A stretch of DNA of 64,000 nt from Fibrobacter sp. UWT2 (GTDB lineage Bacteria > Fibrobacterota > Fibrobacteria > Fibrobacterales > Fibrobacteraceae): positions 62,001-126,000 of the forward strand of contig NZ_FRBF01000005.1 of the NCBI RefSeq assembly GCF_900142545.1, in the 5' to 3' direction. The notes beneath the pieces were generated by a model. The model was not told the origin of the DNA. It made no database searches and was given only the letters and a program-made list of their open reading frames with translations. The translations under genes were made by a program, and so were the position numbers. Of the stretch, positions 11,470 through 55,311 are shown piece after piece. How positions within the stretch are numbered: position 1 is the stretch's first letter; the number at the start of each line of letters is the position of its first letter.

Positions 11470-11490
11470 TATTCAGATTCAAGATGCTGA

Positions 11491-11586
11491 TTCCGAAACG
11501 AGTTCGGAATGACTTGAGTGGGAAGCTGACCCTGACCTACGTCAGGGTGACGTTAGTGGGATGCTGATTCCGAAACGAGTTCGGAA
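11491..11586. repeat. Three consecutive dispersed hairpin repeats
   Basis: Hairpins are TTCCGAA-ACGAG-TTCGGAA (11491-11509), CCCTGAC-CTAC-GTCAGGG (11530-11547) and a second TTCCGAA-ACGAG-TTCGGAA (11568-11586), separated by GAYKTKAGTGGGAWGCTGA-like spacers. They lie between the OmpA terminator and the Wzi-like start. The array is non-coding. Confidence 0.85.
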
Positions 11587-33876: not shown

Positions 33877-35319
33877 ATGCCTTCAGCAAAAACCGTTACA
33901 GCTAATTTTTTTTGGCGTTTTTTTGAACGATGCGGCTCTCAGCTAGTATCTTTCTTTGTATCAATTATACTTGCCCGTCTGTTGGATCCAACCGTTTATG
34001 GTGAAATCGCCCTTATAACAGTTTTTACGTGTATTTTGCAAGTATTTGTCAATAGTGGATTTGGTACAGCACTTATTCAAAAGAAAAATGCAGACGATTT
34101 AGATTTTTCATCTGTATTTTATTTTAATCTCGTTGCGTGTTTGCTAATGTATGGAATAATGTTCTTTAGTGCTCCGTTCATTGCCGATTTTTATCACAGT
34201 CCGCATTTAACCCCAGTTATTCGAGTTCTTAGCCTAACTCTAATTGTTTCTGGAGTTAGAAATATTCAGCAGGCCTACGTTTCAAAAAAACTAATTTTTA
34301 AGAAATTCTTTTTTGCAACAGCAGGGGGTACCTTCGGTTCCGCTATCGTCGGAATTTCAATGGCTTATATGGATTATGGCGTATGGGCTTTAGTCGGTCA
34401 ACAACTTGCAAATGTTGCTTTAGGAACACTTATTTTATGGGCAACCGTTCGTTGGCGTCCAAAATTAATATTTTCGTTACAACGCCTTAAGCATTTATTT
34501 AGTTATGGTTGGAAATTATTAGTTTCTTCACTATTAGATACGGCATACAATCATTTATGTCAATTGGTTATTGGCCGTATTTACACAGCCAAAGATCTTG
34601 CCTTTTATAATCAGGGGCACCTTTTTCCCAATATAATAGTTACAAACATCAATGCATCTATTGACAGCGTACTTTTGCCAGCAATGTCAGCAGAACAAGA
34701 TGACCGGGCACGAGTTCGGACCATGACACGTAGAGCTATTAGCATCAGCACATACGTCATGATGCCAATTATGATGGGACTTGCCGTTTGCGCAGAGCCT
34801 TTAGTTAGGATAATTCTTACTGAGAAATGGCTTCCTTGCGTTCCTTTTTTGCGTATATTTTGTTTCTCTTTTGCGTTTTGGCCGGTTCATACAGCAAATC
34901 TAAATGCAATTAAAGCCTTGGGGCGCAGCGACCTATTTCTTAAACTTGAAATTATAAAGAAAATTGTTGGCCTTATTGCTATTTTATTGACAATGAATAT
35001 CAGCGTTATGGCAATGGCTTACACGCTTTTTGTGACTAGCATTTTAGGGCAAATCATTAACAGTTGGCCGAATAAAAAACTTCTTGGCTATAATTATCTG
35101 GCGCAGTTAAAGGATATGCTTCCGCAAATACTTCTATCTTGCTTTATGGGTGTAGCGGTTTATTGCATCCAATTTGCTGAACTTAGTGATGTGCCTACGT
35201 TAGTATTGCAGGTTGTTTTGGGAATCACTATTTACGCAATTCTTTCAAAAATCTTTAAAATTGAAAGTTTTTGCTACATTTCTAATGCCGTTTTTAAGGT
35301 GATTAACCACAAAAAATAG
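33877..35319 (+). CDS. wzx: Polysaccharide flippase of the MOP superfamily (WzxC-like)
   Basis: The product has 480 residues and is multi-pass, with about 12-14 hydrophobic helices. The start FFWRFFERCGSQLVSFFVSI and ILARLLDPTVYGEIALI are typical of WzxC/RfbX flippases, as is SGFGTALIQKKNADDLDFSS. It moves lipid-linked repeat units across the inner membrane. It opens the AT-rich plus-strand part of the locus (33.9-41.3 kb), a composition sign of horizontal transfer. Confidence 0.92.
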   Translation: MPSAKTVTANFFWRFFERCGSQLVSFFVSIILARLLDPTVYGEIALITVFTCILQVFVNSGFGTALIQKKNADDLDFSSVFYFNLVACLLMYGIMFFSAPFIADFYHSPHLTPVIRVLSLTLIVSGVRNIQQAYVSKKLIFKKFFFATAGGTFGSAIVGISMAYMDYGVWALVGQQLANVALGTLILWATVRWRPKLIFSLQRLKHLFSYGWKLLVSSLLDTAYNHLCQLVIGRIYTAKDLAFYNQGHLFPNIIVTNINASIDSVLLPAMSAEQDDRARVRTMTRRAISISTYVMMPIMMGLAVCAEPLVRIILTEKWLPCVPFLRIFCFSFAFWPVHTANLNAIKALGRSDLFLKLEIIKKIVGLIAILLTMNISVMAMAYTLFVTSILGQIINSWPNKKLLGYNYLAQLKDMLPQILLSCFMGVAVYCIQFAELSDVPTLVLQVVLGITIYAILSKIFKIESFCYISNAVFKVINHKK

Positions 35320-38772: not shown

Positions 38773-38795
38773 AAACGAAATTGACGAGAAGCAGT

Positions 38796-39260
38796 ATGAA
38801 TATCTATCAGCCAGGCGAATACAACGAGAATAAATTGTTTCTGTTTTTACAGGAAACGGACGATTATTTTGTTCCAGCCATGAGTGTGAGAGTAAATCTT
38901 AGAGACTGGGCCGTAAAGATGTGCAAATATGCGGTAATCTTTGAGTATGAGCTTGATGGCGAGATAATTGGACTCGGAGCCACTTATTTCAACAATGCTC
39001 CGGCATATTCTTTTGGAACATATGTATGCGTAAAAAAAGAATATCAAAAAGAAATGTATGGCGTCGAGCTAATACAAAAGATGATAGATTTCGCCAGAGA
39101 AAATGGATCAAAAGGTTTTAAGTGCGAAATTAGAAAATCAAATAAACCTTTAGTAAAGTTTTATAAGCTGATGGGGCTAGAAGCAGTAGAAGAAATTTCT
39201 GTTCCTAACACGACTGAAACAGGCTTGATTATGCAGATAACTTTTAATGAGGAAAAATAA
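38796..39260 (+). CDS. GNAT-family N-acetyltransferase
   Basis: The product has 154 residues. The ATG at 38796 is preferred to the TTG at 38781. The GNAT fold shows in YAVIFEYELDGEIIGLGATY, then YVCVKKEYQKEMYGVELIQKM (acetyl-CoA loop region, without a clear Q/RxxGxG/A) and SNKPLVKFYKLMGLEAVEEI near the end. It is likely to acylate the amino group of the sugar, possibly using the acyl carrier encoded 12 bases downstream. Confidence 0.78.
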   Translation: MNIYQPGEYNENKLFLFLQETDDYFVPAMSVRVNLRDWAVKMCKYAVIFEYELDGEIIGLGATYFNNAPAYSFGTYVCVKKEYQKEMYGVELIQKMIDFARENGSKGFKCEIRKSNKPLVKFYKLMGLEAVEEISVPNTTETGLIMQITFNEEK

Positions 39261-39272
39261 CAGGAGACAATT

Positions 39273-39500
39273 ATGAATCTTACTGAATTTACCCAAGCAT
39301 TCGCAAATATGTTTGATGACACAGACGCCTCTCTATTTAATGAGAATACGAATTATCAAGATCTTGATGAATGGAGTTCTTTGATGACCATGTCAACAAT
39401 TGCTATGGTAAGAACAAAGTGTGGCAAACCTATTACAGCAAAAGAAATACATTCTTGCGAAACGATTGCCGATTTGTACAATTTGATTATGGGAAAATAG
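39273..39500 (+). CDS. Acyl carrier protein
   Basis: The product has 75 residues. It has the four-helix ACP pattern, with the phosphopantetheine serine in LDEWSSLMTMSTIAMV near residue 36 (the common DSL is replaced by SSL). It ends in IHSCETIADLYNLIMG, the usual last helix. AGGAGA precedes the ATG. It is immediately followed by an SDR reductase and a KAS III enzyme, so it should carry a short dedicated acyl chain outside normal fatty acid synthesis. Confidence 0.88.
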   Translation: MNLTEFTQAFANMFDDTDASLFNENTNYQDLDEWSSLMTMSTIAMVRTKCGKPITAKEIHSCETIADLYNLIMGK

Positions 39501-40253
39501 ATGGATAATTCGTTAAATCCTTTTTCTTTAGAAAACAAGACGATCCTTGTGACTGGCGCATCATCAGGCATAGGCCAGGCTATTGCTATTGCTTGCGCTA
39601 AAATGGGTGCGACGGTTGTTGCAACAGCTCGAAATGAAGCCCGCTTGCAAGGCACTCTGCAACAAATGCCGAAAGGAAATCACGCTCTTGTATCGGCAGA
39701 CCTTACAAAAGAAGATGAGATTGAACGACTAATCCAAAGTATTCCAGTGCTAGACGGAATCGTCCATTGTGCAGGAGTGGGATCTCGTGTGCCATGCAAA
39801 TCTTTGGACAAGAATTCTATTGCTGCTGTAATGATGCCAAACTTCGAAGCCCCTGTTTTGTTGCAAGCGGCAATTCTTGCAAACAAGAAAATAAATAAGG
39901 GGGCATCAATAGTTTTTATAGCCTCAAAAGCATATGAGTTGCCAAGTGTCGGAAATGCAGTTTATAGCGCAAGCAAGGGTGCTATTGTTTCTTATTCAAA
40001 GTGTTTGGCTTTAGAATTAGCCCCCCGTCAAATACGCGTTAATTGTATTTGCCCAGCAATGGTTTGGACAAATCTAATTCTTCAAGATGCCTTGACTAAG
40101 GAAGAACTTGAAAGCGCTCAAAAAGCTTATCCGTTAAAGCGTTATGGAAATCCAGAAGACATTGCTAATTTGGCAATTTATCTATTAAGTGGAGCCTCAT
40201 CTTGGATGACTGGCTCCGCAATAGATTTAACCGGTGGAGCGTTGGTACTGTAA
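39501..40253 (+). CDS. SDR-family reductase (FabG-like)
   Basis: The product has 250 residues. TGASSGIGQAIAIACAKMG is the NAD(P)-binding glycine motif, and the catalytic Tyr and Lys are in YSASKGAIVSYSKCLALE near residue 155. RQIRVNCICPAMVWT and the C-terminal GSAIDLTGGALVL are typical of 3-oxoacyl-ACP reductases. The ATG follows the ACP stop with no gap. It would reduce a 3-oxoacyl-ACP made by the next gene to a 3-hydroxyacyl group. Confidence 0.9.
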   Translation: MDNSLNPFSLENKTILVTGASSGIGQAIAIACAKMGATVVATARNEARLQGTLQQMPKGNHALVSADLTKEDEIERLIQSIPVLDGIVHCAGVGSRVPCKSLDKNSIAAVMMPNFEAPVLLQAAILANKKINKGASIVFIASKAYELPSVGNAVYSASKGAIVSYSKCLALELAPRQIRVNCICPAMVWTNLILQDALTKEELESAQKAYPLKRYGNPEDIANLAIYLLSGASSWMTGSAIDLTGGALVL

Positions 40254-40263
40254 CAAGGTGACT

Positions 40264-41262
40264 ATGGCGTACATAAAGGCAATATCGTATTATCTCCCTG
40301 AACAGGTTCTAACAAATGAAGAGCTTGTAAAAGAATTCCCTGAATGGAGTATGGAAAAGGTTGCTGCGAAAGTCGGTGTGGATTCTCGCCATATTGCGGC
40401 AAAAGATGAAACTGCAGGAGACCTGGCCGAAAAAGCCGCAAAGAAACTATTTGCGGAATACTCCGTTGATCCGAAATCAGTAGATTTCCTTTTATTATGT
40501 ACGCAAAGTCCAGATTATTTTTTACCATCAACAGCTTGTATTTTGCAGCATCGCTTAGGAATTCCGACATCTGCAGGCGCTTTTGACTATGACTTGGGCT
40601 GTTCTGGTTGCGTTTATGGTTTAGCTATTGCAAAAGGTCTGATCGCCGCCGGAATTGCAAAGAATGTTCTATTATTAACAGCTGAAACTTATAACAAATA
40701 TCTGCATCCGCAAGATAAGAGTAACCGCTCGATTTTTGGTGATGGTGCCGCAGCATGCTTAATTTCTACGGAAGGAATTGCTGAAATTGGCGAATTTGTT
40801 TTAGGTACAGATGGCAGTGGAGCCGATAATTTGATATTGAAAAGGGGGGGCGCTCGTCAACCAGATGCCAATGGCCATAAGGAAGAAGACGATGACGGAC
40901 ACGTCCGTCGAGACGACTTCCTTTATATGGGTGGAGGAGCTGTTTTTAATTTCACCCTTGATGTTGTTCCGCCAATGATGCAGCAAATTTTAGAAAAAAA
41001 TAAACTTTCTACAGATAATGTGGATTATTATGTTTTCCATCAGGCCAACAAATTTATGCTTTCGACCATCCGCAAAATGTGTGATTTGCCAAAGGACAAA
41101 TTTTATATCAATTTAGCTGAAACAGGAAATACAGTTTCCTCAACGGTGATGATTGCCCTGAAAGATTGCTTGGATAATGGGACAATTTATTCTGGCATGA
41201 AAGTGATGATTTCCGGCTTTGGCGTAGGTCTTAGCTGGGGCGGAACGATGTTGAAGTTTTAG
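40264..41262 (+). CDS. 3-oxoacyl-ACP synthase III (FabH-like)
   Basis: The product has 332 residues. The ATG at 40264 has AAGGTG before it. The catalytic triad is visible: Cys in DYDLGCSGCVYGLAIAKG near 113, His in YYVFHQANKFML near 255 and Asn in ETGNTVSST near 286. KAS III condenses acetyl-CoA with malonyl-ACP. With the local ACP and reductase it could build a 3-hydroxybutyryl-type acyl group for sugar N-acylation. Its stop overlaps by 4 bases the stop of the convergent gene at 41259. Confidence 0.9.
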   Translation: MAYIKAISYYLPEQVLTNEELVKEFPEWSMEKVAAKVGVDSRHIAAKDETAGDLAEKAAKKLFAEYSVDPKSVDFLLLCTQSPDYFLPSTACILQHRLGIPTSAGAFDYDLGCSGCVYGLAIAKGLIAAGIAKNVLLLTAETYNKYLHPQDKSNRSIFGDGAAACLISTEGIAEIGEFVLGTDGSGADNLILKRGGARQPDANGHKEEDDDGHVRRDDFLYMGGGAVFNFTLDVVPPMMQQILEKNKLSTDNVDYYVFHQANKFMLSTIRKMCDLPKDKFYINLAETGNTVSSTVMIALKDCLDNGTIYSGMKVMISGFGVGLSWGGTMLKF

Positions 41263-42218
41263 CGTCTAAAAAATTTTTTAAAAAAATAATAAAGTTTTTC
41301 ATGCAAGGACATTTTCTTGAACAAGCCTGGGTATTTCTGTTTTGCTTTGAAGAAAAAGCCTTGTTTCAGCAATAAATTAAATTTTAACCAATCTATCCTA
41401 TGAGAAACTGATTCATACTTATGGTCAGTCCATTCGTCGAATTCTTCATAGAAACTAATAACATTTAGACGATTCGCAACATTTCGTTTACAATCCGCAT
41501 TTGTTTTCGACCAGGATCCAAGAACACCACGCCTATAGGCACTCATAACCTCTCCGGATCTAAAAATAGGTCCTTTAAATTTAAGATATGCAGCAAGCTT
41601 TACATCTCCAGGAGCCAACGAACAACTGAAAAAAAGAGGAATGTCTAAATATTCACAACTTCTACACATTAAGGAACTTGCGTGATAACGTTCAGCAAGA
41701 TTATCTATAGTTAACACAGCATCTTTTTGAGAAAACATTAGATGATCTTTTTTTCTATTGTTTAGTTCAATAAACAAGGTATTGTGAGCGCAAGCAACGT
41801 ATTCTTGATGAGACTCCAAAAAATCCACTTGTTTTTGAAGCTTCTTGCAGTCTATCCAATAATCGTCACCTTCACAAAACGCAAAATATTTTCCACAACA
41901 TTCAGAATCAATAATTCGTTTCAATGATCCGTCATTTTTCGAATATTGATTTTCCGTTTCATAAATGGCTTTGATGATATGTGGAAATCTAGATTCATAT
42001 GTTCGAATAATATCAGCAGTTTCATCCGTAGAAGCATCATCATGCACTACAATCTCAAACGGGAAATTCGTTTCTTGCATCAAAAAAGATTCCAATGCAC
42101 ATGCAATATAAGGTGCATGATTGTATGTAATACAACGAACGGATACTAAAGGAGATGCAGACCGATTCCAATTCAACATAATATGATTTTCAGTCAATTC
42201 ACGCATATTTTCCTGCAT
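41259..42218 (-). CDS. Glycosyltransferase family 2
   Basis: The product has 319 residues with a GT-A fold. LVSVRCITYNHAPYIACALE opens the domain, EIVVHDDASTDETADIIR and FAFCEGDDYWIDCKKL provide the nucleotide-sugar and DxD-type acidic sites. The C-terminal half has a pair of positively charged helices and no membrane segment. It is the last gene of the twelve-gene minus-strand polysaccharide operon, and it would add one sugar to the lipid-linked repeat unit in the cytoplasm. Confidence 0.88.
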   Translation of the reverse strand: MQENMRELTENHIMLNWNRSASPLVSVRCITYNHAPYIACALESFLMQETNFPFEIVVHDDASTDETADIIRTYESRFPHIIKAIYETENQYSKNDGSLKRIIDSECCGKYFAFCEGDDYWIDCKKLQKQVDFLESHQEYVACAHNTLFIELNNRKKDHLMFSQKDAVLTIDNLAERYHASSLMCRSCEYLDIPLFFSCSLAPGDVKLAAYLKFKGPIFRSGEVMSAYRRGVLGSWSKTNADCKRNVANRLNVISFYEEFDEWTDHKYESVSHRIDWLKFNLLLKQGFFFKAKQKYPGLFKKMSLHEKLYYFFKKFFRR

Positions 42219-42245: not shown

Positions 42246-43376
42246 TCACAAAACAGCCTTTTTTAAACTTGTCATCAAGCATAACAATATATAGACAAAA
42301 AAATACCCACAATTAAGCATAAAAGAATCTTTTCCGTAATCCATAGAATTATCAAAAGAAAAAGCCGAAAATTCCCTTGTAGAATTCGATATCCAAAACG
42401 GGCCTCGTCCATAAGACAATGGATATTTTTCAAAAGGCTCCCTATATGCATCTATATAGGTAACCTTATTATTTTGGACTTGATTGATGATCACTTGGTG
42501 CTCGTTAATTTTTTTTGTCTTATTAATTATAACAAGATTTGTTTTTTCGTTTGCAAATAAAATATTATGACACAAAGTTCCTGACAAAGCAGCAACCGTC
42601 GTTGCATTATTTATATAATATATTTGCTGATCTAAGGACAATTCTTCCATAAAAAGCGAAACAAAGCCGTTCTTGTTGAAAGCATCCTCGATTCCTTTTT
42701 CTCCAACTTCTTTACATTTATACCATTTAAAACGCCTTCGCGACAAATAAACCTTATTATAAGGGACGCAATTAATATTAATATTATTGCTTACAACATT
42801 AAATATTTCACGAAATTCTTTTGTATAATAACCTCCACATAAATACGAGGCTTCGGGAATTATAATCTTTCTATATCGGGTTGGTTCCGTTACTAATAGC
42901 AATCGATTTTCATCTATACCAATCAATTGCAAAAATCTTAGGTAATTCCCAGCGATTTCGCCGGAATCAGATGTATAAACAATCTTGTAAGAATTTTTAT
43001 GGTAAAGAAAATACCACAATCGAGGAACAAAATCTACAAGAAAATGCCCCCATTGTTTATGGAAGAGGCCCAAGTAAATCACATTTTCGTCATATTCTTT
43101 TATTTTATGACTATCAAATGAATACGAACTATTAAAACGATCTTTTGTTTTTCCTAATGCAATACATGCAGAAAGCTTTACATAATTTCCACTTTTATCA
43201 ACGATTCCTCCAATTCCGTGTAACGGGCCATTTGGCGGAGATTTTTTTCTTGGAAGGAATATTCCGCTTTCAACTTCTTCAACTTTAAGTTTTCTTTCAA
43301 CTAAGTAGTCTCGGCTTATTAATTCAAGGAAATCGCTTTTATACTCAGAATCACGAATATAAGAAGTATCAACCAT
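42246..43376 (-). CDS. Glycosyltransferase family 61 protein
   Basis: The product has 376 residues. The ATG at 43376 has AAGGTG six bases upstream and is preferred to the GTG at 43385. GLFHKQWGHFLVDFVPRLWY contains the conserved H-x-HF/L-D pattern of the family (DUF563), and NKVYLSRRRFKWYKCKEV with the later IYYINNATTVAALSGTLCHN is the typical second half. A hydrophobic segment near the C-terminus may tether it to the membrane. It is a transferase of the polysaccharide locus, and its sugar cannot be read. Confidence 0.8.
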   Translation of the reverse strand: MVDTSYIRDSEYKSDFLELISRDYLVERKLKVEEVESGIFLPRKKSPPNGPLHGIGGIVDKSGNYVKLSACIALGKTKDRFNSSYSFDSHKIKEYDENVIYLGLFHKQWGHFLVDFVPRLWYFLYHKNSYKIVYTSDSGEIAGNYLRFLQLIGIDENRLLLVTEPTRYRKIIIPEASYLCGGYYTKEFREIFNVVSNNININCVPYNKVYLSRRRFKWYKCKEVGEKGIEDAFNKNGFVSLFMEELSLDQQIYYINNATTVAALSGTLCHNILFANEKTNLVIINKTKKINEHQVIINQVQNNKVTYIDAYREPFEKYPLSYGRGPFWISNSTREFSAFSFDNSMDYGKDSFMLNCGYFFVYILLCLMTSLKKAVL

Positions 43377-43397
43377 ATTAATCACCTTAAGGCATTG

Positions 43398-43805
43398 TTA
43401 TTTCAGCGTTTCCAATTGATTTTTAATTTTCGAAGAGCAAATTCCAGGAGTCCTTGAAAGTTTTACAACTTCTTTGCCGTTTTCATGGCACCATGAAATT
43501 GCTCTTTGAAAGCCCTCATGATTTTGATCACCGCCAACAGCAAAAACATCAAAGTCAACTTTTTGCAAAATCTTATCAACATCTTGATACACAATTACCT
43601 CATCAACGACTCTAAGAGCCTTCACAAGATCTATTCTTTGCTCCGTTGTGTAGAGAATATTCGCATCTGGTTTCGTTTTAAGAATAGAATTGCCATCTTG
43701 AACAGCTACAATGAGATAATCACCGCATTTTTTTGCATTTTCAAATAAACGTAAATGCCCTAGATGGAAATAATCAAAAACCCCAACCGTAATAACTTTT
43801 TTCAT
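43398..43805 (-). CDS. tagD: Glycerol-3-phosphate cytidylyltransferase (TagD-like)
   Basis: The product has 135 residues. VGVFDYFHLGHLRLFENAKK holds the HxGH nucleotide-binding motif, and the end LSRTPGICSSKIKNQLE corresponds to the RTxGISTT signature. The enzyme makes CDP-glycerol from CTP and glycerol 3-phosphate. A CDP-glycerol glycerophosphotransferase gene lies three genes upstream in the same operon (45202-46425), which supports this substrate over ethanolamine phosphate. In a Gram-negative background this predicts phosphoglycerol groups or links in the surface polymer. Confidence 0.88.
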   Translation of the reverse strand: MKKVITVGVFDYFHLGHLRLFENAKKCGDYLIVAVQDGNSILKTKPDANILYTTEQRIDLVKALRVVDEVIVYQDVDKILQKVDFDVFAVGGDQNHEGFQRAISWCHENGKEVVKLSRTPGICSSKIKNQLETLK

Positions 43806-43844
43806 AATAAATCCCTCTTACTTGTAAATTCAAACGCCGAAAGA

Positions 43845-44357
43845 TCACACCATTTTTTTTTCAATAATATCTCTTGCATTATATACAATACTATTAGCTC
43901 TAACAAGCCCTTTTATTATAGTTCCAGCGCCAATGACACAATTGTCTTCAATGTTTGAACCTTTTAAAATCATAACATTTGCACCAATCCAAACATTCTT
44001 TCCTATATATATATCAGCCGCAGTAAATTCATCTTTTTTAAAGCCATTTGCATCATATTTATGATCATGATCATAAATACAAACATTCGGCCCAATAGAA
44101 GAACCATCTCCAATATATATATGTTTTTTTGCAACTATAATTGTATTCCTATTAATAGTAACATTATCTTTTATGGTTATTTTTCCCAAATTAGACGCAC
44201 AGACAAAAGCATTTTCATTAATCAAACATTTGCCCAGCTCAACAAGACCTCTTTGCGAAATCTTTATGGAGGCGTTTTTCCTTATTTCAAATTTACTTCC
44301 AATAAGCCTTTGCCCATACTTTATCTTAATAATGATTTTTTTCAGCATCTTAAACAT
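43845..44357 (-). CDS. Hexapeptide-repeat (LbH) acyltransferase
   Basis: The product has 170 residues. It has consecutive hexapeptide turns (ITIKDNVTINRNTIIVA, IYIGDGSSIGPNVCIYDHDH, IYIGKNVWIGANVMILKGS, CVIGAGTIIKG) with the catalytic-type histidine in YDHDHKYD. It is a WbbJ/maltose O-acetyltransferase-like enzyme that acetylates a sugar with acetyl-CoA. The N-terminus is basic and amphipathic. It lies within the operon between the TupA-like and TagD genes. Confidence 0.87.
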   Translation of the reverse strand: MFKMLKKIIIKIKYGQRLIGSKFEIRKNASIKISQRGLVELGKCLINENAFVCASNLGKITIKDNVTINRNTIIVAKKHIYIGDGSSIGPNVCIYDHDHKYDANGFKKDEFTAADIYIGKNVWIGANVMILKGSNIEDNCVIGAGTIIKGLVRANSIVYNARDIIEKKMV

Positions 44358-44363
44358 TGTCTG

Positions 44364-45221
44364 TCACCTCCTTAATATCACCTTATTTCCCATTTCGAAT
44401 TCAAAACTTAATGGTCTGTACTTAGAAAAACCTGCACCACTGAAAAAAGTCATTTCACCAAAATACAATTTTCCATTAATTATATAAAAATCAACACGTA
44501 CTTCAGCAAAAGGAGCAGCTAATTTTCTCGCACAAGACAACATTTCTTCTAATACAACAGGTCTGGGGACAGCAGGCCCCTTCGGGAAACTAATTTCCAC
44601 ATCTAAAAGAGTCCAATTAGTGTCATAAATATTACGCCGATGTTCACCAAATCTATCTAAATCAACCTGAATCATATATGGTTCTCCTGCAATCGTAAAA
44701 ACCTTATAATCCTCCAATTGTCCCGTTGCTAAATTTTCCATATATTGCTCACAAATAATTTTAGGAGGTATATTTTTATAATGATATTCTCTCAATTTTC
44801 TATAGTACTTTTCTTTAAGCCATTTATTCAACAATCGCGTCGTCTTCTCTTTATCGAACAAAGCTTTGTCTTTACATATTATATTATATTTCGCCCCATG
44901 ATTACACTTAAGTACAAATTGACTAGGCAATTTATCATAGTCAATATCTTCTGCTTTGTCATATACACCTATAACTGGTATAAGATACGATGTTCCTATC
45001 ACCGAGGCAACGAAATCTCTTACTTGGACCTTATCTGCACATGTTGAATACAAGGGATTCCTGTCGTACAGTTTCATCCATTGGAGTTTTTGATTAAAAC
45101 TTACCGGTTTTTTCCAATTCATACTGTACCCAGTCAATCTTTTAAAACGCAAAGACAAGTACAATCTATCTGGTAAATACTCTAAAATTTTCCAAACAAA
45201 TCTATTTAATTTGAGCATCAT
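44364..45221 (-). CDS. TupA-like ATP-grasp protein
   Basis: The product has 285 residues with GAGGAAA before a double ATG. PVSFNQKLQWMKLYDRNPLY, CADKVQVRDFVASVIG, FVLKCNHGAKYNIIC and later KIICEQYMENL and LYFGEMTFFSGAGFSKYRP are the conserved blocks of the TupA-like ATP-grasp family common in polysaccharide clusters. ATP-dependent ligation to the glycan is expected, but the substrate is unknown; family annotations as glycosyltransferase are based on context. It overlaps the upstream gene by 20 bases. Confidence 0.85.
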   Translation of the reverse strand: MMLKLNRFVWKILEYLPDRLYLSLRFKRLTGYSMNWKKPVSFNQKLQWMKLYDRNPLYSTCADKVQVRDFVASVIGTSYLIPVIGVYDKAEDIDYDKLPSQFVLKCNHGAKYNIICKDKALFDKEKTTRLLNKWLKEKYYRKLREYHYKNIPPKIICEQYMENLATGQLEDYKVFTIAGEPYMIQVDLDRFGEHRRNIYDTNWTLLDVEISFPKGPAVPRPVVLEEMLSCARKLAAPFAEVRVDFYIINGKLYFGEMTFFSGAGFSKYRPLSFEFEMGNKVILRR

Positions 45222-46425
45222 TTTCCTCTAATAAATTTAATGTTGCTTGATACACGCGTTCGCAATTTTTATCATCATACGGAATAAAAAAATTCTCTGC
45301 TCTTTTCTTGTACATTTCATCCATGTTCATATTTTGATTTATGACATGCTGTATATATTCAACAAGGTCTTCTTTAGTCTTTACTAAAGGGCCAAAAGCA
45401 TCTCTCTCATAGGAAAAATAGCCTTCTTTATAATGTTTATTTCGATACTCTTCCAAATCAAACTGATAAAAAGCCATTGGTTTTTTCATATAACCATAAT
45501 CGAAAAAAACACTTGAATAATCTGTAATTAACATAGATGATTGAATTAACAAATTTTGGACATCATACTCTCCCCGCCTGCAAATTGTCACAGAATCATT
45601 AGCTACAGATTCAAATGCCCCCACATATGGTTGGAACGTATAATGTAAATAGAACATAAGTTTATATCCATTCTTGGCAGCACAATCAATCAGATCTTGA
45701 TCAGTCAATAGATTTTGATAGGCCTCATAATATGCGCTTTCTTTAAATTTTTGCATTTCTTCATCTGTGGCTTTAACTTTAGACGAATCTGAGGTTTTAA
45801 GCCAAGCTCTAAAAGTTGGCATAATAAGAATAATTTTCTTCGGTTTAGGCAAATTATGTAAAGAATCGAAACGACAGAACCCAGTTAAAGCAATGTTTTT
45901 ATCCGGATAATGGAACTGTTTTTTTATTTCATCATATTCTGGTTTTGCCCCAGCAATATATAAGTCAAAACCAACTTTACGGAAATTAAACGATCCTGGC
46001 CTAAAATCTTTCGAAATACCATGTTTTAGATTGATCTGTTTTTGATTTTTTCGTTTATAAACACAAAAATGTCGTAATCCAATCACGTCATCAAAGGGGA
46101 TTAATCCATGAACCTGACTACACGCACGAATTTTAGCTGAAATATAATAGACGCAGTGCTTAAATGATCCATAATCAACAACTTCTCCTAAATCAGCTAC
46201 TTTTTTTCTATCAACACTATCTTTTGAAATTGCATAAACGGCTTTAATTTCAGGATGATTAAGCCTCAAATATCTAAAAAAATGATAGCCGTTATCTCTA
46301 GCTTCAGTTTTCTTTTCACCAACCAGCCATATATTTTCTTGCAGCAATTTTCGACCAAATAATATTGTATAAAATTGACTCAATATAAATTTTGAAATCG
46401 AAAAAAGATAATGTAATACATTCAT
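45202..46425 (-). CDS. CDP-glycerol glycerophosphotransferase (TagF/TagB-like)
   Basis: The product has 407 residues. IWLVGEKKTEARDNGYHFFR opens the domain, KQINLKHGISKDFRPGSFNF, then LLITDYSSVFFDYGYMKKPMA near 295 and FQFDLEEY-like QFDLEEYRNKHY are hallmark blocks of the poly(glycerophosphate) transferase family. An N-terminal hydrophobic helix suggests membrane association. It would transfer glycerol phosphate from the CDP-glycerol made by the TagD-like enzyme of the same operon onto the repeat unit. Ribitol phosphate is less likely, because no ribitol gene is seen. Confidence 0.88.
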   Translation of the reverse strand: MNVLHYLFSISKFILSQFYTILFGRKLLQENIWLVGEKKTEARDNGYHFFRYLRLNHPEIKAVYAISKDSVDRKKVADLGEVVDYGSFKHCVYYISAKIRACSQVHGLIPFDDVIGLRHFCVYKRKNQKQINLKHGISKDFRPGSFNFRKVGFDLYIAGAKPEYDEIKKQFHYPDKNIALTGFCRFDSLHNLPKPKKIILIMPTFRAWLKTSDSSKVKATDEEMQKFKESAYYEAYQNLLTDQDLIDCAAKNGYKLMFYLHYTFQPYVGAFESVANDSVTICRRGEYDVQNLLIQSSMLITDYSSVFFDYGYMKKPMAFYQFDLEEYRNKHYKEGYFSYERDAFGPLVKTKEDLVEYIQHVINQNMNMDEMYKKRAENFFIPYDDKNCERVYQATLNLLEENDAQIK

Positions 46426-46431
46426 ATAAAT

Positions 46432-47670
46432 CTATTCCTTCGCCACTTCAAACATGGAATAATTATGAGATAAAATGTACAACAGATGCATAATCATAAG
46501 AAGACCTATATTATAGTACAATATTTGTCCAACACAAATAAACGCCAACACAATAAATAATGATAAGACATTTACTAGTAATAATTTATTCGCTCTATTT
46601 TTAAACATTTTTATAATCTTCCAAATTTGCAAACCCCAAATACAATATGCCCAGAAAGCTCCGATAATTCCTGTGCATGCCAAAATTTCAACATAGGTAT
46701 TATGAGAATATTTTCCATTAAACGAGAATATTTTATAATTATTCAGTCCAACACCAAATAAAGGATGATTTTCAAATACTAAAAAAGCATCTTTTATCAA
46801 ATCAGAACGTTCTGTATTAGACGACAACATTTCCATTCTAGCATTCATCAATTCAAATGCAGAAAGAAAAGCATCACCGAAGCGATTGACAACAAAAATA
46901 GGGACGAAAAACAATAAAGCAATAACCAATGAACGATAAATAAAATTCATTTTTCTTAAAAACGGAATCAATCCAAAAATTGCCCACATTGAAACAATAA
47001 TCAAAACCCCAATGAACGCTTTTCTAGAAGCCGTATTAAGTATTACATACACAAATAGTGCAAATAAAATTACATATATCACAATCATTAATGGTTTAAC
47101 TTTTTTCGTTGTAAGCAAAAAAATCAAGCCCCAAACGCAAAACATAAGAAAGACCGCCAATGTATTAGCATTTGTAGCTTCATTAAGCGAAATCCGAACT
47201 ATTTTTCCAAAAGTATATCCACCACTTTTTATTATATACAAGCATAAAATTACTCCTGAAAGCACCCAAGAATATACAAACCAGTTTACGTTTTTTTGAT
47301 TTATTGTAATATTAAGCATTGAATATCCAACAATTAATGAAAGCGAAAGTGTCTTCAATGCATCAAAAAAGAATTCTTTGTTGTCTGCAACAATTATTCC
47401 AGTAACTGCAGATGCAACAACTAAAAGGCCTTCTAAAATAATGACACCATTGACATTAAAACGAAAATTATCACATATTAATGTAAAAATAAAAAGCAAT
47501 CCAACAATCATCCATACAAGGTTGGAGCTAATCCACCCTATAGGTTCCAACGCTCTAGAGAATACAATGTATAGACCACCTAGCCATAATTGTATTGTCT
47601 CAAAAGCAATCAAAGTTTCGCTATTATTCTCTATTAATTTCAAAATATTATATTTCCGCTTAAATGACAA
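46432..47670 (-). CDS. wzy: O-antigen ligase/polymerase family membrane protein (Wzy-like)
   Basis: The product has 412 residues with about 11 transmembrane helices. The signature of the O-antigen ligase/polymerase family is the large periplasmic loop followed by FENHPLFGVGLNNYKIF and YSHNTYVEILACTGIIGAFW. In a locus with Wzx, Wzc and a priming transferase, polymerase is the best reading. It overlaps the LicD gene upstream by 31 bases. AT-rich, like the rest of the operon. Confidence 0.85.
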   Translation of the reverse strand: MSFKRKYNILKLIENNSETLIAFETIQLWLGGLYIVFSRALEPIGWISSNLVWMIVGLLFIFTLICDNFRFNVNGVIILEGLLVVASAVTGIIVADNKEFFFDALKTLSLSLIVGYSMLNITINQKNVNWFVYSWVLSGVILCLYIIKSGGYTFGKIVRISLNEATNANTLAVFLMFCVWGLIFLLTTKKVKPLMIVIYVILFALFVYVILNTASRKAFIGVLIIVSMWAIFGLIPFLRKMNFIYRSLVIALLFFVPIFVVNRFGDAFLSAFELMNARMEMLSSNTERSDLIKDAFLVFENHPLFGVGLNNYKIFSFNGKYSHNTYVEILACTGIIGAFWAYCIWGLQIWKIIKMFKNRANKLLLVNVLSLFIVLAFICVGQILYYNIGLLMIMHLLYILSHNYSMFEVAKE

Positions 47671-48437
47671 ATTCTCTTTTCTATAGGAGGCAACTGCATA
47701 TAATCACCATACATTTTCCCTAAATAATAGTCCGAATTATTCATTATCTCGTACATTCTATTTTCAAATTCAACATCCTTTGTTGGCAATAGTTTATCAA
47801 CATCAAACGTCAAAAACATTGTATCCGACATTTTATAAGCATAACATGTGCATGTGTTAGTCTTTTTATTTTGATATTTTTTATAATGATTGCTACACAA
47901 TTTATAAACGAAACCTTCGGGAATTAACCTCACGAAACCACGCACAATTCGACGTGCAATATTTTCATTCTTTGGTTTTCGCTGCCTTAATGCATACAAC
48001 TTGTTTAGTCTTCGAGCCTTTAATATATCTTTTTTTGCTTTCTCAAAATCATCCGCAACATAATCAAATGGAAATATATCAACGAAAATACCTTGGTGCA
48101 TTTTCGCATTTTCATTTCGATGCTCAGGAAAAAAAGTATTGTTGATTCGAATTTTGGCGCTTAATTTTGAATATTCTTTATCGGTTTCAGATGTCTGAAG
48201 AAAGAATTTCTCATTCAACTCGCTTTTGGCAATTTCAATAAACCGTTCATAATCATCTCTAAGCATACCGATATCAGCATCGTCATCCCATGGAATAAAA
48301 CCTTTATGTCTGACAGCTCCTAAAGCCGTTCCACTATCCAAAAAATATGCAATTTTATTTTTTCTGCAAATTCGATCAATTTCGTCTATGATCATCAACA
48401 ATCTTGAATGAAGTTTTTTTAGCATTTCTGCATTCAT
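47640..48437 (-). CDS. LicD-family phosphotransferase
   Basis: The product has 265 residues. The nucleotidyltransferase-like core of LicD is present: YFLDSGTALGAVRHKGFIPW then DDDADIGMLRDDY with the catalytic aspartates near residue 52, and GIFVDIFPFDYV. LicD proteins attach phosphocholine or other phospho-alcohols to glycans. In this operon, with TagD and a TagF-like enzyme, it may handle phosphoglycerol or a similar group. No choline uptake or activation gene is in view. Confidence 0.88.
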   Translation of the reverse strand: MNAEMLKKLHSRLLMIIDEIDRICRKNKIAYFLDSGTALGAVRHKGFIPWDDDADIGMLRDDYERFIEIAKSELNEKFFLQTSETDKEYSKLSAKIRINNTFFPEHRNENAKMHQGIFVDIFPFDYVADDFEKAKKDILKARRLNKLYALRQRKPKNENIARRIVRGFVRLIPEGFVYKLCSNHYKKYQNKKTNTCTCYAYKMSDTMFLTFDVDKLLPTKDVEFENRMYEIMNNSDYYLGKMYGDYMQLPPIEKRICHLSGNIIF

Positions 48438-48455: not shown

Positions 48456-49262
48456 TTATAATTTTTTTAAAAATCCTCTAAACATATTCTTCATGGCAAC
48501 TAACATTGTCACATTAGATATATACAGGTTCCGCTTAGTGAACGCCGTGTACAAACAATACAAGAAGCCAAAAAAAGTTCCCAGAATTCTTCTACTCACA
48601 GTTCCACATTGCACAAAATAGTGTTCATTGTAACCATGAAACCATTTTGAGTCCGTTTGCATAACTTCACCTATACAAATAGGGACATAGTATATATTTA
48701 AACCTTTCCGCAAACAGTCATAAAGAAACTTATTTTCCTCTCCATACCCCTGGGGTGTTCCTGAACCAAGTTTTTCATCAAAATGAATGCAGGAATTAAC
48801 TACTTTTGCCCTATTAAATGTTATTTGCCAGCTTGACATCTTTAGGGCTTTAATATACCCGACTTTGCACTCTTTTTTGGAATATTTTTTTGTTGGACTT
48901 TTTACTTGGAAACATATGACATCTGCTTTTGGGTTTCTATCATACGCTTGTAATATTTTACTTTCATAACCATTGTATAGAGTTTCGTCATCGTCAGCTA
49001 AAAGGCAATAGCAACCATTTGCGTTATCTAAAGCCATATTTCGGCTTCGACTTAAACCTCTTTGTTTTGTTGAAATACACCTTATTTTTTTTGTTGCATG
49101 CTCTAGATAAGCAACATCATCCTTATCGCATTGGTTGATTATCAAGCAATCAGATTCAATCCCTGTTTTTTTCGCTATTGAAAAATCTTTTTGGTGCATT
49201 GCTGAGATCAACACTTCAACATTAGACTTGCCCATAAGAGCTCCTGCATACATAAATGCCAT
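48456..49262 (-). CDS. Glycosyltransferase (GT-A type, family 2-like)
   Basis: The product has 268 residues. The nucleotide-sugar fold is seen in VEVLISAMHQKDFSIAKKTG, then KQRGLSRSRNMALDNANGCY and CLLADDDETLYNGYE, where DDDE is the DxD metal site. LGSGTPQGYGEENKFLYDCL is a typical acceptor-side motif. The C-terminus has a hydrophobic helix (FFGFLYCLYTAF). It acts in the same repeat-unit assembly as its neighbours, and the transferred sugar cannot be read. Confidence 0.82.
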   Translation of the reverse strand: MAFMYAGALMGKSNVEVLISAMHQKDFSIAKKTGIESDCLIINQCDKDDVAYLEHATKKIRCISTKQRGLSRSRNMALDNANGCYCLLADDDETLYNGYESKILQAYDRNPKADVICFQVKSPTKKYSKKECKVGYIKALKMSSWQITFNRAKVVNSCIHFDEKLGSGTPQGYGEENKFLYDCLRKGLNIYYVPICIGEVMQTDSKWFHGYNEHYFVQCGTVSRRILGTFFGFLYCLYTAFTKRNLYISNVTMLVAMKNMFRGFLKKL

Positions 49263-49274
49263 AACCAGAATTAA

Positions 49275-50063
49275 TTATACAACTGCGTCAGAATTTAGTA
49301 CTTCATAAATTCTTTTCTTCCACAGTCCATACCACATGTTCCAACAGGCGTACCAAAGGGCAACCGGAGCAGGTTTACCATCACACATATGGAACAGGTC
49401 GTAATGACTGCGGAGTTTCTTGCTCAATTTGTCGTGACTAATGCTTTTCTTGCGAATCCTGTACTTCGCTAGATTTTCCTTGAGCAAGTGTGCTTCTGTT
49501 CCAGGTTTCTTGTACAGTTGCAGGCGAATGGCGTAATCATTGTTTTTCTTGATGTCCTTAATTTGGATTAAGCCAAAGTGTTTGGCGCTGTACATCATGG
49601 TCAATTGGCCAATGTAGTCGTAGTTGTACATTTTGCGCTTGTTAACAACTCTGGGGCCAGTCACATAGATGTTTAAGGGTTTGTCCTCTTCGTCAATCTT
49701 CTCGTATTCCGTGTAAGAGAGTACATACCCATGTTCTTGCATGAATCCAATCTGTTTCACCAACTTTAGCGGAGTCCACAGATCATCGGAATCAAGGAAG
49801 GCAATCCATTCCCCCTGGGCTTCGCGCAAAGCCCTGTTTCGGGTCAATGCGGCACCCAGATTCTTTTCATTGTGGAAATATTTGATGCGCGGGTCCTTCA
49901 GGAACGGTTCTACAACAGCATCGGTATTGTCTGTAGAACAATCGTCCACTATCAAGAGTTCCCAATTCTGGTAGGTCTGGTCAATAACGCACTGGATAGA
50001 CTCTGCAATAAACTTTGCAGTGTTCCAAGAGGGCATAATAATCGAAACAAGACCTTCTACCAT
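49275..50063 (-). CDS. Glycosyltransferase family 2
   Basis: The product has 262 residues. LVSIIMPSWNTAKFIAESIQ, LLIVDDCSTDNTDAVVEPFL and WIAFLDSDDLWTPLKLVKQI give the classical GT2 pattern with DSDD as the metal site. It is close to the WaaB/WcaA-type family of capsule transferases. Base composition moves back toward that of the core genes here, which marks the edge of the AT-rich block at about 49.3 kb. Confidence 0.92.
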   Translation of the reverse strand: MVEGLVSIIMPSWNTAKFIAESIQCVIDQTYQNWELLIVDDCSTDNTDAVVEPFLKDPRIKYFHNEKNLGAALTRNRALREAQGEWIAFLDSDDLWTPLKLVKQIGFMQEHGYVLSYTEYEKIDEEDKPLNIYVTGPRVVNKRKMYNYDYIGQLTMMYSAKHFGLIQIKDIKKNNDYAIRLQLYKKPGTEAHLLKENLAKYRIRKKSISHDKLSKKLRSHYDLFHMCDGKPAPVALWYACWNMWYGLWKKRIYEVLNSDAVV

Positions 50064-50077
50064 AATTCTACCCGCAA

Positions 50078-50776
50078 TCAGTTATAATCCTTCCCCAACA
50101 CGGCAAAAACAGTCCTGGGCATAGTCAACATGTCTCTAAAGAAGTTGAACTTCTGTACAGATTCTAGGTTCCACTTCATCTTTGCCGGCAAAACTTCTTC
50201 TATGTAAACCTTGTCCACGTCATCGGCGGCGTTCAAGAGTTTATCTTCGTCCTTGTAGCGTATGCTAGCTTCGCTGGTGATTCCTGCCGGCATCAACAAG
50301 GTCGCCATGTATTCGGGCTTGTACTTTTCCACGTACTTCACGGCTTCGGGCCTTGTGCCCACAAAGCTCATGTCGCCATTAAGCACATCGAACAGTTGTG
50401 GCAACTCATCGAGCCTTAGGCTACGCAGTTTCGCACCTACTCTCGTGATTCGGCTGTCGTTCCCAACGGTCACTGCAGAACCGATTTTGTCGGCGTTGCT
50501 TACCATGGTGCGGAACTTGTGGATTCTAAAGTGCTTGCCGTTGGTGGTAACGCGTTCCTGGCGGTACAAAACCGGGCCCTTGCTGTCTAGCTTGATCATG
50601 ACAGCTATAACAGCCATGGGAATCGCAAGAATCACAAACAGAATCAAGGCTACAGCCAAGTCAAAGCAACGCTTCAAGGCCAATTGGCCACGGCGCTTTG
50701 CCAGAATGTCGTAATACCTGCGAACTTCGTCGCAGCGCATTTCGGCAGGCAGGTTGTCCCACTTGGCTAAAGCCAC
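50078..50776 (-). CDS. Priming phosphoglycosyl transferase (bacterial sugar transferase)
   Basis: The product has 232 residues. One hydrophobic re-entrant helix (about 38-60) is followed by RQERVTTNGKHFRIHKFRTM and LRSLRLDELPQLFDVLNGDM, then SFVGTRPE, the hallmark of PglC/WcaJ-type enzymes with the catalytic Asp-Glu in RLDELPQ. It loads the first sugar phosphate onto undecaprenyl phosphate. The N-terminal extension of about 30 residues and compact size fit the PglC class. The adjacent aminotransferase suggests that the first sugar is an amino-deoxy sugar. Confidence 0.92.
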   Translation of the reverse strand: MALAKWDNLPAEMRCDEVRRYYDILAKRRGQLALKRCFDLAVALILFVILAIPMAVIAVMIKLDSKGPVLYRQERVTTNGKHFRIHKFRTMVSNADKIGSAVTVGNDSRITRVGAKLRSLRLDELPQLFDVLNGDMSFVGTRPEAVKYVEKYKPEYMATLLMPAGITSEASIRYKDEDKLLNAADDVDKVYIEEVLPAKMKWNLESVQKFNFFRDMLTMPRTVFAVLGKDYN

Positions 50777-50777
50777 C

Positions 50778-52034
50778 TTATACCTCGTATTCCTTGATGG
50801 TCTTCACGAAGGTTTCAACAATAAAATCAACCTGTTCGTCGGTCAGCAGCGTATGGAGCGGGAGCGTAATCTCGTTTGCGAACTGGGCGTAAGCATTCGG
50901 GTAGTCCTTGATGTCAAAGCCCAAGTTCTTGTAGGCGGTCATCATCGGGAGCGGCTTGTAGTGCACGTTGGTCGCGATCCCCTGTTCCGCCATTTTCACA
51001 ATGATTTCGTGGCGCTGTTCGGCGCTGATTCCCGGAATGCGCGAGAGGTACAGGTGTCCGCTGGAATAACTGTCGTTTGTAGCGTGCGGCAAGGTCTTTA
51101 CTCCGAGCGGCTTGAGCGCGGCATCGTACTTTTCGATAATCTGGTGACGGCGTTCGAGAAGGCCCGGGTAGCGTTCCAACTGTTTGAGACCAATGGCCGC
51201 CATGATGTCGGTCATGTTGCACTTGTAGTTGGGGGCAACAATGTCGTATTCCCAGGCGCCGAGCTGCGTCTTGGCCAGGGCGTCTTTCGACTGGCCATGC
51301 AGAGAAAGCAACTGGAACTGCTTGTAAACGGCTTCGTTATCGATAAAATCGCGGGTGCGCCACGTAGCGGCACCGCCTTCGGCCGTGGTCAGGTTCTTGA
51401 CGGCATGGAAAGAGAAACTGGAGAAGTCGGCAATTTCGCCGGCCACCTTGCCGTGCCACTTTGCACCGAATGCATGGGCACAGTCTGCCACCACGATCAC
51501 GCGACCAAAGCCCTTCTGGATTTCGTTATTCGGTTTGAACAGGGCCTTTTTACGTTCAACAATTTCAAAAATGTGGTCGTAATCGCAAACCACGCCGCCG
51601 ATATCCACCGGAATAACCACCTTGGTCTTTTCAGTAATGGCGTTTTCGAGGGCTTCGTAGTCCATTTCGAAGGAATCCTTGGCGGTGTCCACGAACTTGA
51701 CGGTCGCGCCGCAATGGATTGCCGGGCTAGCCGAAGCAGTGTACGTGTAGGCAGAGGTGATTACCTCGTCGCCAGGGCCAATGCCCAAAATACGCAAAAT
51801 CAGTTCAAGGGCTGCCGTAGCAGAGTTCAAACAGACAGCCTTGTCGGTATGGCACACCTTGGCAATTTCAGCTTCGAATTTCTTTGTTCTCGGACCCGTG
51901 GTAATCCAGCCAGAGCGCAAGGCCTCGCAGACTTCTTCAATTTCCAAATCAGTGATATCAGGAGGAGAAAAAGAAATCTTCATACGCGCCGCAACCTTCG
52001 GTGTTACCCGGCCTTTTTTGCGCTTAGCGACCAC
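50778..52034 (-). CDS. DegT/DnrJ-family aminotransferase (PglE/WecE-like)
   Basis: The product has up to 418 residues. FSPPDITDLEIEEVCEALRS and GWITTGPRTKKFE open the conserved fold, then SAYTYTASASPAIHCGATVK, ADCAHAFGAKWHGK and the lysine in SFHAVKNLTTAEGGA near residue 195. It aminates a 4-keto sugar, and the dehydratase at 7975 could supply the substrate. The GTG at 52034 is uncertain. MKISFSPPDI at 51983 is the more usual beginning of the family, and neither has a clear ribosome site. A TATATTTG box lies upstream at 52075. Confidence 0.9.
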   Translation of the reverse strand: MVAKRKKGRVTPKVAARMKISFSPPDITDLEIEEVCEALRSGWITTGPRTKKFEAEIAKVCHTDKAVCLNSATAALELILRILGIGPGDEVITSAYTYTASASPAIHCGATVKFVDTAKDSFEMDYEALENAITEKTKVVIPVDIGGVVCDYDHIFEIVERKKALFKPNNEIQKGFGRVIVVADCAHAFGAKWHGKVAGEIADFSSFSFHAVKNLTTAEGGAATWRTRDFIDNEAVYKQFQLLSLHGQSKDALAKTQLGAWEYDIVAPNYKCNMTDIMAAIGLKQLERYPGLLERRHQIIEKYDAALKPLGVKTLPHATNDSYSSGHLYLSRIPGISAEQRHEIIVKMAEQGIATNVHYKPLPMMTAYKNLGFDIKDYPNAYAQFANEITLPLHTLLTDEQVDFIVETFVKTIKEYEV

Positions 52035-55122: not shown

Positions 55123-55311
55123 CTACTTCAGCGCGAGCATCGCCGAAATCACGTTCTCTGGCACGTTCTGCGAACGCAAGTAGTCGGCCCGTTTGGTGTC
55201 GCGAACAGCATTGTCTGCATTATTCTTTTCGCGCTCATGTTTAGCGCCGTTCGCTTGGCCCTTCAAGAAGGCTTCGGCTTCGAGAACCTCGTATTCATGA
55301 TGATCGAACAT
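55123..55311 (-). CDS. Putative internal small protein: C-terminal tail of the nuclease
   Basis: An in-frame ATG inside the nuclease gene is preceded by GGAGG-CAAAC, a near-ideal ribosome site in the middle of a coding region. It would make 62 residues from MFDHHEYEVLEAEAF to the shared end SAMLALK. E. coli Rpn genes are reported (recalled, not checked) to make a small C-terminal protein from an internal start that inhibits the full-length nuclease. Here the same logic is inferred. Confidence 0.45.
   Translation of the reverse strand: MFDHHEYEVLEAEAFLKGQANGAKHEREKNNADNAVRDTKRADYLRSQNVPENVISAMLALK

Follow-up and report, generated by a model that had tools for sequence, protein, structure and literature searches.

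Glycerol phosphate has been described in Gram-negative capsules, through the TagF-like polymerases of Actinobacillus pleuropneumoniae and others (PMC5974469), the glycerol-3-phosphate cytidylyltransferases (GCTs) of such capsules (PMC8262930), and the glycerol phosphate of Campylobacter jejuni HS:1 (PMC11924219); these and all papers cited below by PMC number are represented here by excerpts. We analyzed a related gene module in the genome of Fibrobacter sp. UWT2 (3.49 Mb in 49 contigs), within a stretch of 64,000 nucleotides, hereafter the window, that corresponds to bases 62001-126000 of contig C5. A TagD-like cytidylyltransferase, a polyol-phosphate transferase of family PF04464, and a LicD-family phosphotransferase lie there in one gene run with a Wzy-type polymerase, from which an earlier, sequence-only reading had predicted phosphoglycerol in the surface polymer of a Gram-negative cell. 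The prediction of a Wzx/Wzy-type surface polymer carrying phosphodiester-linked groups is well supported, and glycerol is a plausible best guess for the alcohol, most likely among the candidates considered.

The capsule module of A. pleuropneumoniae serotype 3/7 comprises CpsA (PF04464), CpsB (a GCT), CpsC (LicD family), and the polymerase CpsD (PMC11666461, PMC8262930), with CpsA and CpsC building a glycerol-phosphate linker (PMC11666461). The Fibrobacter locus resembles it in that a Gram-negative genome again combines a cytidylyltransferase with PF04464 and LicD proteins, the latter two over their family cut-offs and the cytidylyltransferase under the GCT cut-off. However, A. pleuropneumoniae primes a membrane glycolipid, from which the chain is grown by a multidomain TagF-like polymerase, whereas the single-domain PF04464 protein of Fibrobacter is accompanied by Wzy, a flippase, and a PF02397-type priming enzyme, which point to a Wzy-dependent polymer; moreover, CpsB is about 70% identical to Bacillus subtilis TagD, when the Fibrobacter enzyme stays below 48% to GCTs. 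The C. jejuni HS:1 capsule likewise associates a Gram-negative GCT (sharing 45% identity with that of B. subtilis) and a TagF-like domain with a glycerol-phosphate polymer, but its polymerase is fused and multidomain, and no LicD is mentioned in the excerpts of PMC11924219. The Wzx/Wzy-type decoration locus of the enterococcal polysaccharide antigen (EPA) of Enterococcus faecalis shares LicD-family and TagB-type phosphotransferases, its authors modeling a polyol-phosphate decoration; this system is however Gram-positive, employs ribitol phosphate through a TarI homolog, and involves attachment by LytR-CpsA-Psr (LCP) proteins (PMC7188991), of which we found none here.

Another likeness comes from a genome bin labeled Saccharibacteria (locus L113), in which PF02397+GT2, PF04464+Wzy_C+GT2, LicD, a cytidylyltransferase of the window's own type (61% identical), and then a flippase-like gene (by eye) follow one another, with the difference that the genes are fused into two large proteins. 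There, the Wzy-family protein is fused behind PF04464 within a 1169-aa frame (L113:5531-9040, PF04464 + Wzy_C + GT2), and the preceding frame is the PF02397 + GT2 fusion. As a phylum, Saccharibacteria are not known to have an outer membrane.

The teichoic-acid-like feature that the sequence-only reading had singled out in a Gram-negative cell is of a published kind (PMC5974469, PMC8262930, PMC11666461, PMC11924219), and of 167 genomes searched in the phylum, 83 match PF04464, 81 of them over the cut-off. The trait is known in kind; what differs is the Wzy setting, the use of two little-studied enzyme subfamilies, and the kinship of TagD with clostridial proteins. Judged by title and term counts, none of the papers listed in literature searches naming Fibrobacter dealt with CDP-glycerol or LicD in this genus, a weak negative given that subscription papers lay mostly outside the search.

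The predicted phosphotransfer module within its gene run

The run consists of 12 minus-strand genes, from 52034 down to 41259, extending beyond the 43398-48437 of the sequence-only reading, and likely forms a single operon because the spacing between neighbors is only -31 to +39 nt. Reading frames and Pfam models confirm that the TagD-like, PF04464, Wzy, and LicD genes all lie on this strand at the positions previously proposed. The genes are given below in their order from 52034, followed by a plus-strand flippase that presumably belongs to the same polysaccharide locus.

50778..52034, minus strand: DegT-type sugar aminotransferase, first of the run (PF01041, 312.4 bits)
50078..50776, minus strand: priming sugar-phosphate transferase (PF02397, 185.2 bits)
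49275..50063, minus strand: GT2 glycosyltransferase, TuaG-like (PF00535, 127.8 bits; NF047683, 211.3 bits, under its cut-off of 400)
48456..49262, minus strand: GT2 glycosyltransferase (PF00535, 39 bits)
47640..48437, minus strand: LicD-family phosphotransferase (PF04991, 167.8 bits, cut-off 22.6)
46432..47670, minus strand: Wzy-type polymerase (PF04932, 57.7 bits, cut-off 31.7)
45202..46425, minus strand: PF04464 polyol-phosphate transferase, 407 aa, single domain (154.2 bits, cut-off 22.1)
44364..45221, minus strand: TupA-like ATP-grasp protein (PF14305, 199.1 bits)
43845..44357, minus strand: hexapeptide-repeat acetyltransferase (PF00132, 49.9 bits)
43398..43805, minus strand: TagD-like cytidylyltransferase, 135 aa (PF01467, 64.2 bits, cut-off 21)
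42246..43385, minus strand: GT61 glycosyltransferase (PF04577, 61.1 bits)
41259..42218, minus strand: GT2 glycosyltransferase, last of the run (PF00535, 60.4 bits)
33877..35319, plus strand: Wzx-type flippase (PF13440, 325.4 bits)

The case for phosphodiester-linked groups lies in the co-occurrence, within this run, of a cytidylyltransferase with its HxGH motif, a PF04464 protein with both of its histidines, and a LicD protein with its acidic motif. The TagD-like protein displays H14-x-G-H17, K45-P46, Y73, G-G-D93-Q94-N-H, and R118-T119-P-G-I-C-S-S; it has the cytidylyltransferase fold as well as the HxGH motif, whose H14, G16, and H17 are kept in 90/90 members of its subfamily. In LicD, the motif reads W50-D-D-D-A-D55; of the 66 proteins aligned, 58 retain D51, 60 retain D53, and 65 retain D55, and these aspartates of the W-D-D-D-x-D motif are named as potentially catalytic in the Mf1 study (PMC11982090). 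As for the PF04464 protein, it carries H135-G-I-S and F258-Y-L-H261, H261 aligning with the RMH histidine of TagF; H135 and H261 are invariant, and HGI and FYxH common, in five of five subfamily members (the window protein and four relatives at 35-39% identity). The window protein thus reads HGIS and FYLH in place of the HGTP and RxH context of classical members, which is conserved between Cps3D and TagF (PMC11666461); HGTP is rare by eye among the other PF04464 proteins of the loci described below, so that this motif does not define the whole family. The predicted structure of the PF04464 protein (pLDDT 81.5) resembles Cps3D (Z 27.9), TagF (27.4-27.8), TarL (25.4), and Bcs3 (24.3-25.2), the nine best fold entries representing four enzymes, all glycerol- or ribitol-phosphate transferases, and the next entry scoring Z 20.5.

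In the mechanism that we propose, the TagD-like enzyme would activate a phospho-alcohol with CTP, most likely turning sn-glycerol-3-phosphate into CDP-glycerol; LicD, and probably PF04464 too, would move the phospho-alcohol from the CDP-donor to a sugar of the lipid-linked repeat unit, where it would either form a side group or link units within the chain; and Wzx would flip the repeat unit, with Wzy polymerizing it. Homology, motifs, and gene order establish the enzyme families, their catalytic motifs, the recurrent TagD-LicD and TagD-PF04464 neighborhoods, and how far this TagD stands from its other Fibrobacterota relatives; the alcohol, the acceptor sugar, and the division of steps between the two transferases are inferred. 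The hexapeptide acetyltransferase and the TupA-like ATP-grasp protein sit between the TagD-like and PF04464 genes, and both were omitted from the sequence-only reading; the former (43845..44357) may add an O-acetyl decoration. In locus L078, a protein with a TupA-like start (by eye) also adjoins a relative of TagD.

A Fib_succ_major protein encoded elsewhere in the genome agrees with its placement in Fibrobacterota. The Gram-negative label fits: LpxC is present in the genome (77.4 bits, cut-off 27), and no LCP ligase (PF03816) matches there, when 7/14 control genomes have a match. Wall teichoic acid proper was rejected on the same ground, namely that the genome has no LCP protein.

Genes beside the cytidylyltransferase in other genomes

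We found 136 relatives of the window TagD in named genomes and retained the best 80 as loci, on which all counts out of 80 rest. Most of these genomes are bins, so that the phylum label of any single contig may be wrong; many of the loci stop at a contig edge, and the LicD and PF04464 neighbor profiles were built from the same loci plus seeds and may overlook remote members. LicD is encoded no more than 2.5 kb from the window-type TagD in 47/80 loci, and PF04464 in 20/80; both lie within this distance in 6/80, and neither in 19/80. LicD occupies 38/159 gene places at distance 1 as compared with 10/329 at distances 5-7, and the corresponding figures for PF04464 are 13/159 and 4/329. Among nine further Fibrobacterota loci, five have LicD only, three PF04464 only (one of which, L073, on a weak partial match of 31.7 bits), and one has both within the same distance. 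The closest LicD among those gathered (L081/L090, 49% identical) stands directly in front of a window-type TagD that is itself 78-81% identical to ours.

Since LicD (47/80) and PF04464 (20/80) both recur near the window-type TagD, one CDP-group probably feeds both transferase types. The Saccharibacteria bin G197 (13 contigs, 766 kb) suggests that one CDP-alcohol can do so: apart from a single TagD-like enzyme (window type, 61%), no cytidylyltransferase of this kind was found there, and this enzyme is accompanied by one LicD and one PF04464 protein. The PF04464 protein, fused to Wzy and GT2, is one frame split by a stretch boundary, hence counted in two rows. Possible incompleteness of the bin and the ability of PF04464 proteins to transfer hexose phosphate qualify this suggestion. 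The window-type PF04464 protein recurs at 37-41% identity over most of its length in G199, G197, G177, and G174, and at 31-34% in three more genomes. When the 37 genomes behind 38 of the 80 loci were searched with the window's PF04464 protein, 20 had some match. In the UWT2 genome, the only PF04464 match is the single-domain 407-aa protein, with no multidomain TagF-like polymerase.

Identity of the transferred alcohol

Taken as a whole, a Wzx/Wzy-dependent polysaccharide operon with a phosphodiester module whose alcohol is most likely glycerol is the reading toward which we lean. The closest PDB relatives of the TagD-like protein by sequence are the GCTs 1coz (66 bits) and 2b7l (61 bits), and a profile built from eight Fibrobacterota-like members scores these at 101-103 bits, choline enzymes at 48 bits, and a two-domain ethanolamine enzyme at 97 bits (better domain 62.6). 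Its predicted model (pLDDT 86) has 1coz as nearest Foldseek neighbor, and 1coz is tied with 5x3d and 3glv under VIA-align (Z 16.9-17.8). GCTs carry an RTxGISTT motif, and their lysines K44 and K46 contact the CDP-glycerol phosphates (PMC8262930). The window protein reads RTPGICSS, of which T119 is kept in 90/90 and R118 in 89/90 subfamily members and the later positions differ; K43 (81/90) and K45 (90/90) are offset by one with respect to K44/K46, in a loop whose alignment is uncertain. The fold of the PF04464 model, nearest to the glycerol-phosphate transferases Cps3D and TagF, and the single TagD-like enzyme found in G197 also speak for glycerol. By eye, the operon has no evident gene for the synthesis of a dedicated alcohol, as would suit a central metabolite like glycerol-3-phosphate.

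A number of observations nevertheless weigh against glycerol. With 64.1 bits, the TagD-like protein falls below the cut-off (165.4) of TIGR01518, the curated GCT model, and we therefore do not file the 43398-43805 product as a GCT: the "TagD-like" of the sequence-only reading holds for the cytidylyltransferase family PF01467 and is not confirmed for TagD in the strict sense. The protein in fact scores higher against the rfaE domain II model (73.4 bits), although still below that cut-off (181.5), and its top structural score (Z 17.8) goes to 5x3d, a phosphonate cytidylyltransferase domain, as compared with 16.9 for 1coz. Window-type enzymes form a subfamily separate from 1coz/2b7l on a long branch of the tree, are 32-47% identical to GCTs, and conserve a G-P-D-Q-N-H loop (G-G-D-Q-N-H in the window protein itself) where 1coz reads G-D-D-W-E-G. 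Three of the 80 loci (L079, L083, and L088) additionally encode a canonical glycerol enzyme (64-70% identity to 1coz/2b7l), a redundancy if CDP-glycerol were the product of both enzymes. This canonical enzyme directly adjoins the window-type TagD in L083, whereas the two cytidylyltransferases of L088 each adjoin a LicD of their own. Some second cytidylyltransferase occurs in 9/80 loci. A PF01177 Asp/Glu-racemase-family gene, which the glycerol pathway leaves unexplained, is found at most two genes from TagD in 12/80 loci and adjoins it in 10. Around PF04464, moreover, no TagD-like gene was seen in the 19 kb of G199 and the 14 kb of G177 that were read, these being two of the four genomes with this PF04464 type, and hexose phosphate is another group that members of PF04464 can transfer (PMC5974469).

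These features of subfamily, loop, canonical GCT neighbors, and racemase-family neighbors can be accommodated if TagD makes a non-glycerol CDP-group (derived, for instance, from phosphoethanolamine, a phospho-sugar-acid, or an amino-alcohol phosphate), mainly for LicD, with PF04464 using the same group or CDP-glycerol from a GCT-oxidoreductase fusion elsewhere in the genome. That a better GCT candidate exists at C7 of the same genome is in line with this: of three matches in a TIGR01518 scan, none of which reaches the cut-off, the C7 fusion scores 122.5 bits, a second C7 protein 83.6 bits, and the window protein is the weakest at 63.3 bits. We regard this reading as a serious possibility, albeit one we would not expect to prevail, for PF04464 lies within 2.5 kb in a quarter of the loci (20/80), G197 accompanies its LicD and PF04464 with no TagD-like protein found other than the window-type enzyme, glycerol enzymes are the solved proteins closest in sequence, and the window operon lacks an evident alcohol-supply gene. 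The phosphoglycerol of the sequence-only reading accordingly survives in part: phosphodiester-linked groups are backed by three families, their motifs, and one run, when glycerol itself is plausible only, given the TIGR01518 score, the separate subfamily, and the canonical GCT of those three loci.

More specific decorations fare less well. Phosphocholine added by a Lic-like route would agree with LicD being the phosphocholine transferase family, whose only curated model listed is the Mycoplasma Mf1 cholinephosphotransferase equivalog (74.8 bits, under its cut-off of 225). However, no choline kinase exceeds the cut-off in the genome (best 19.6 bits, cut-off 29), and the cytidylyltransferase profile scores glycerol enzymes well above choline enzymes, which makes this route extremely improbable. 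A 2-aminoethylphosphonate (2AEP) decoration, which we deem very improbable as well, would draw on the top structural score of the TagD-like model, on a PhnW-like aminotransferase of the C7 locus (under model cut-offs), and on Vinogradov et al. 2001, a Fibrobacter succinogenes S85 structure cited among others for 2AEP in bacterial polysaccharides in the discussion of PMC9311074; however, no phosphonate gene was seen in the window operon, and no dedicated PEP (phosphoenolpyruvate) mutase is evident, because the one match to the broad superfamily model (33.9 bits, cut-off 31.5, positions 5-107 of 240) is of a kind also found over the cut-off in 9/14 control genomes.

Other candidates were discarded. 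CDP-ribitol via TarI was rejected since only one IspD-like enzyme of the genome exceeds the cut-off (185.6 bits; the second match has 21.1 bits), and the absence of a second IspD and of a choline kinase over the cut-offs counts against TarI CDP-ribitol and Lic-route phosphocholine, respectively. ADP-heptose, suggested by the rfaE score, was set aside because both sequence and profile place glycerol enzymes closest among the solved structures. The CDP-glycerate enzyme of PMC12275187 is without homology to TagD.

A second decoration locus lies on contig C7 (L012:6855-14792), with the glycerol-type cytidylyltransferase fused to a Gfo/Idh/MocA oxidoreductase, the PhnW-like aminotransferase, three LicD genes, a flippase-like gene (by eye), and another cytidylyltransferase on the opposite strand. 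Its putative product is a CDP-glycerol that is possibly oxidized, then aminated. Matches recur in the genus inside frames of a length similar to the C7 fusion, which may likewise be fusions. L083, which has two further cytidylyltransferases and three LicD genes, contains a frame (10297-11511) that joins a short-chain dehydrogenase to a third cytidylyltransferase, and in L104 a nucleotidyl (NTP) transferase and a HAD protein stand between LicD and TagD. The loci with a racemase-family neighbor are L082, L088, L089, L091, L100, L104, L105, L117, L119, L138, L139, and L151; PF01177 was shown for the L117 protein, with which the other 11 cluster.

Origin, surroundings, and significance

The nearest relative of the window TagD among the best 80 of 136 is 86% identical, and relatives at least 75% identical are mostly labeled Clostridia or Bacillota, including the isolate Ruminococcus albus KH2T6 (84%); some are bins labeled otherwise (Rhodospirillaceae, Saccharibacteria). 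A search of 167 genomes of the phylum with TagD gave some match in 130, the best match being 44-61% identical in nine genomes besides UWT2 and the other matches listed scoring below 70 bits. In a tree of 96 rows, built on few alignment columns and with 52/93 inner branches open, the window TagD falls within a supported set of 17 (SH-aLRT 97), 13 of which are labeled Bacillota. Eight of the nine Fibrobacterota relatives belong to the tree's other large part; the ninth, L073, groups on the Bacillota side but outside this set. Considering the 86% identity to mostly clostridial proteins versus 61% within Fibrobacterota, together with this one supported set, horizontal transfer of the window TagD seems likely; it may have been acquired from clostridia, the tree leaving the source of the transfer unfixed. 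Record titles of some relatives name the rumen.

Window-type TagD is seen in Fibrobacterota-like genomes and in records labeled Bacillota, Bacteroidota, Actinomycetota, Saccharibacteria, and others. This enzyme could represent a widespread unrecognized subfamily that makes a non-glycerol CDP-compound for LicD/PF04464, in a cassette passed between phyla, a view to which we give less than even odds.

Along the run, G+C is 0.53 in the DegT gene, 0.51 in the priming gene, 0.44 in the adjoining GT2 gene, and 0.30-0.35 in the remainder, as compared with 0.48-0.52 in three stretches taken elsewhere from the genome; by our reading, this pattern corresponds to a conserved edge followed by an A+T-rich variable part. 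On the plus strand, 36452-41262 is a cassette of sugar aminotransferase, ATP-grasp, short-chain dehydrogenase/reductase (SDR), and KAS III genes, which also contains a 159-aa protein without NCBIfam match (38781-39260) and a 75-aa frame resembling an acyl carrier protein (ACP) by eye (39273-39500); perhaps this cassette makes an acyl group for the same polymer. Two minus-strand frames (52666-53658 and 55123-56070) have C-terminal ends that look alike by eye and are perhaps transposase-like.

If the glycerol reading is true, Fibrobacterota would join the Gram-negatives with teichoic-acid-like surface polymers, and the UWT2 locus would be an example of such a module within a Wzy-type operon. If the alcohol is instead not glycerol, then a common enzyme subfamily would be misread by similarity, and with it many predicted surface structures. 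Under either reading, the shared genes connect the surface chemistry of Gram-negative bacteria with that of Gram-positive ones.

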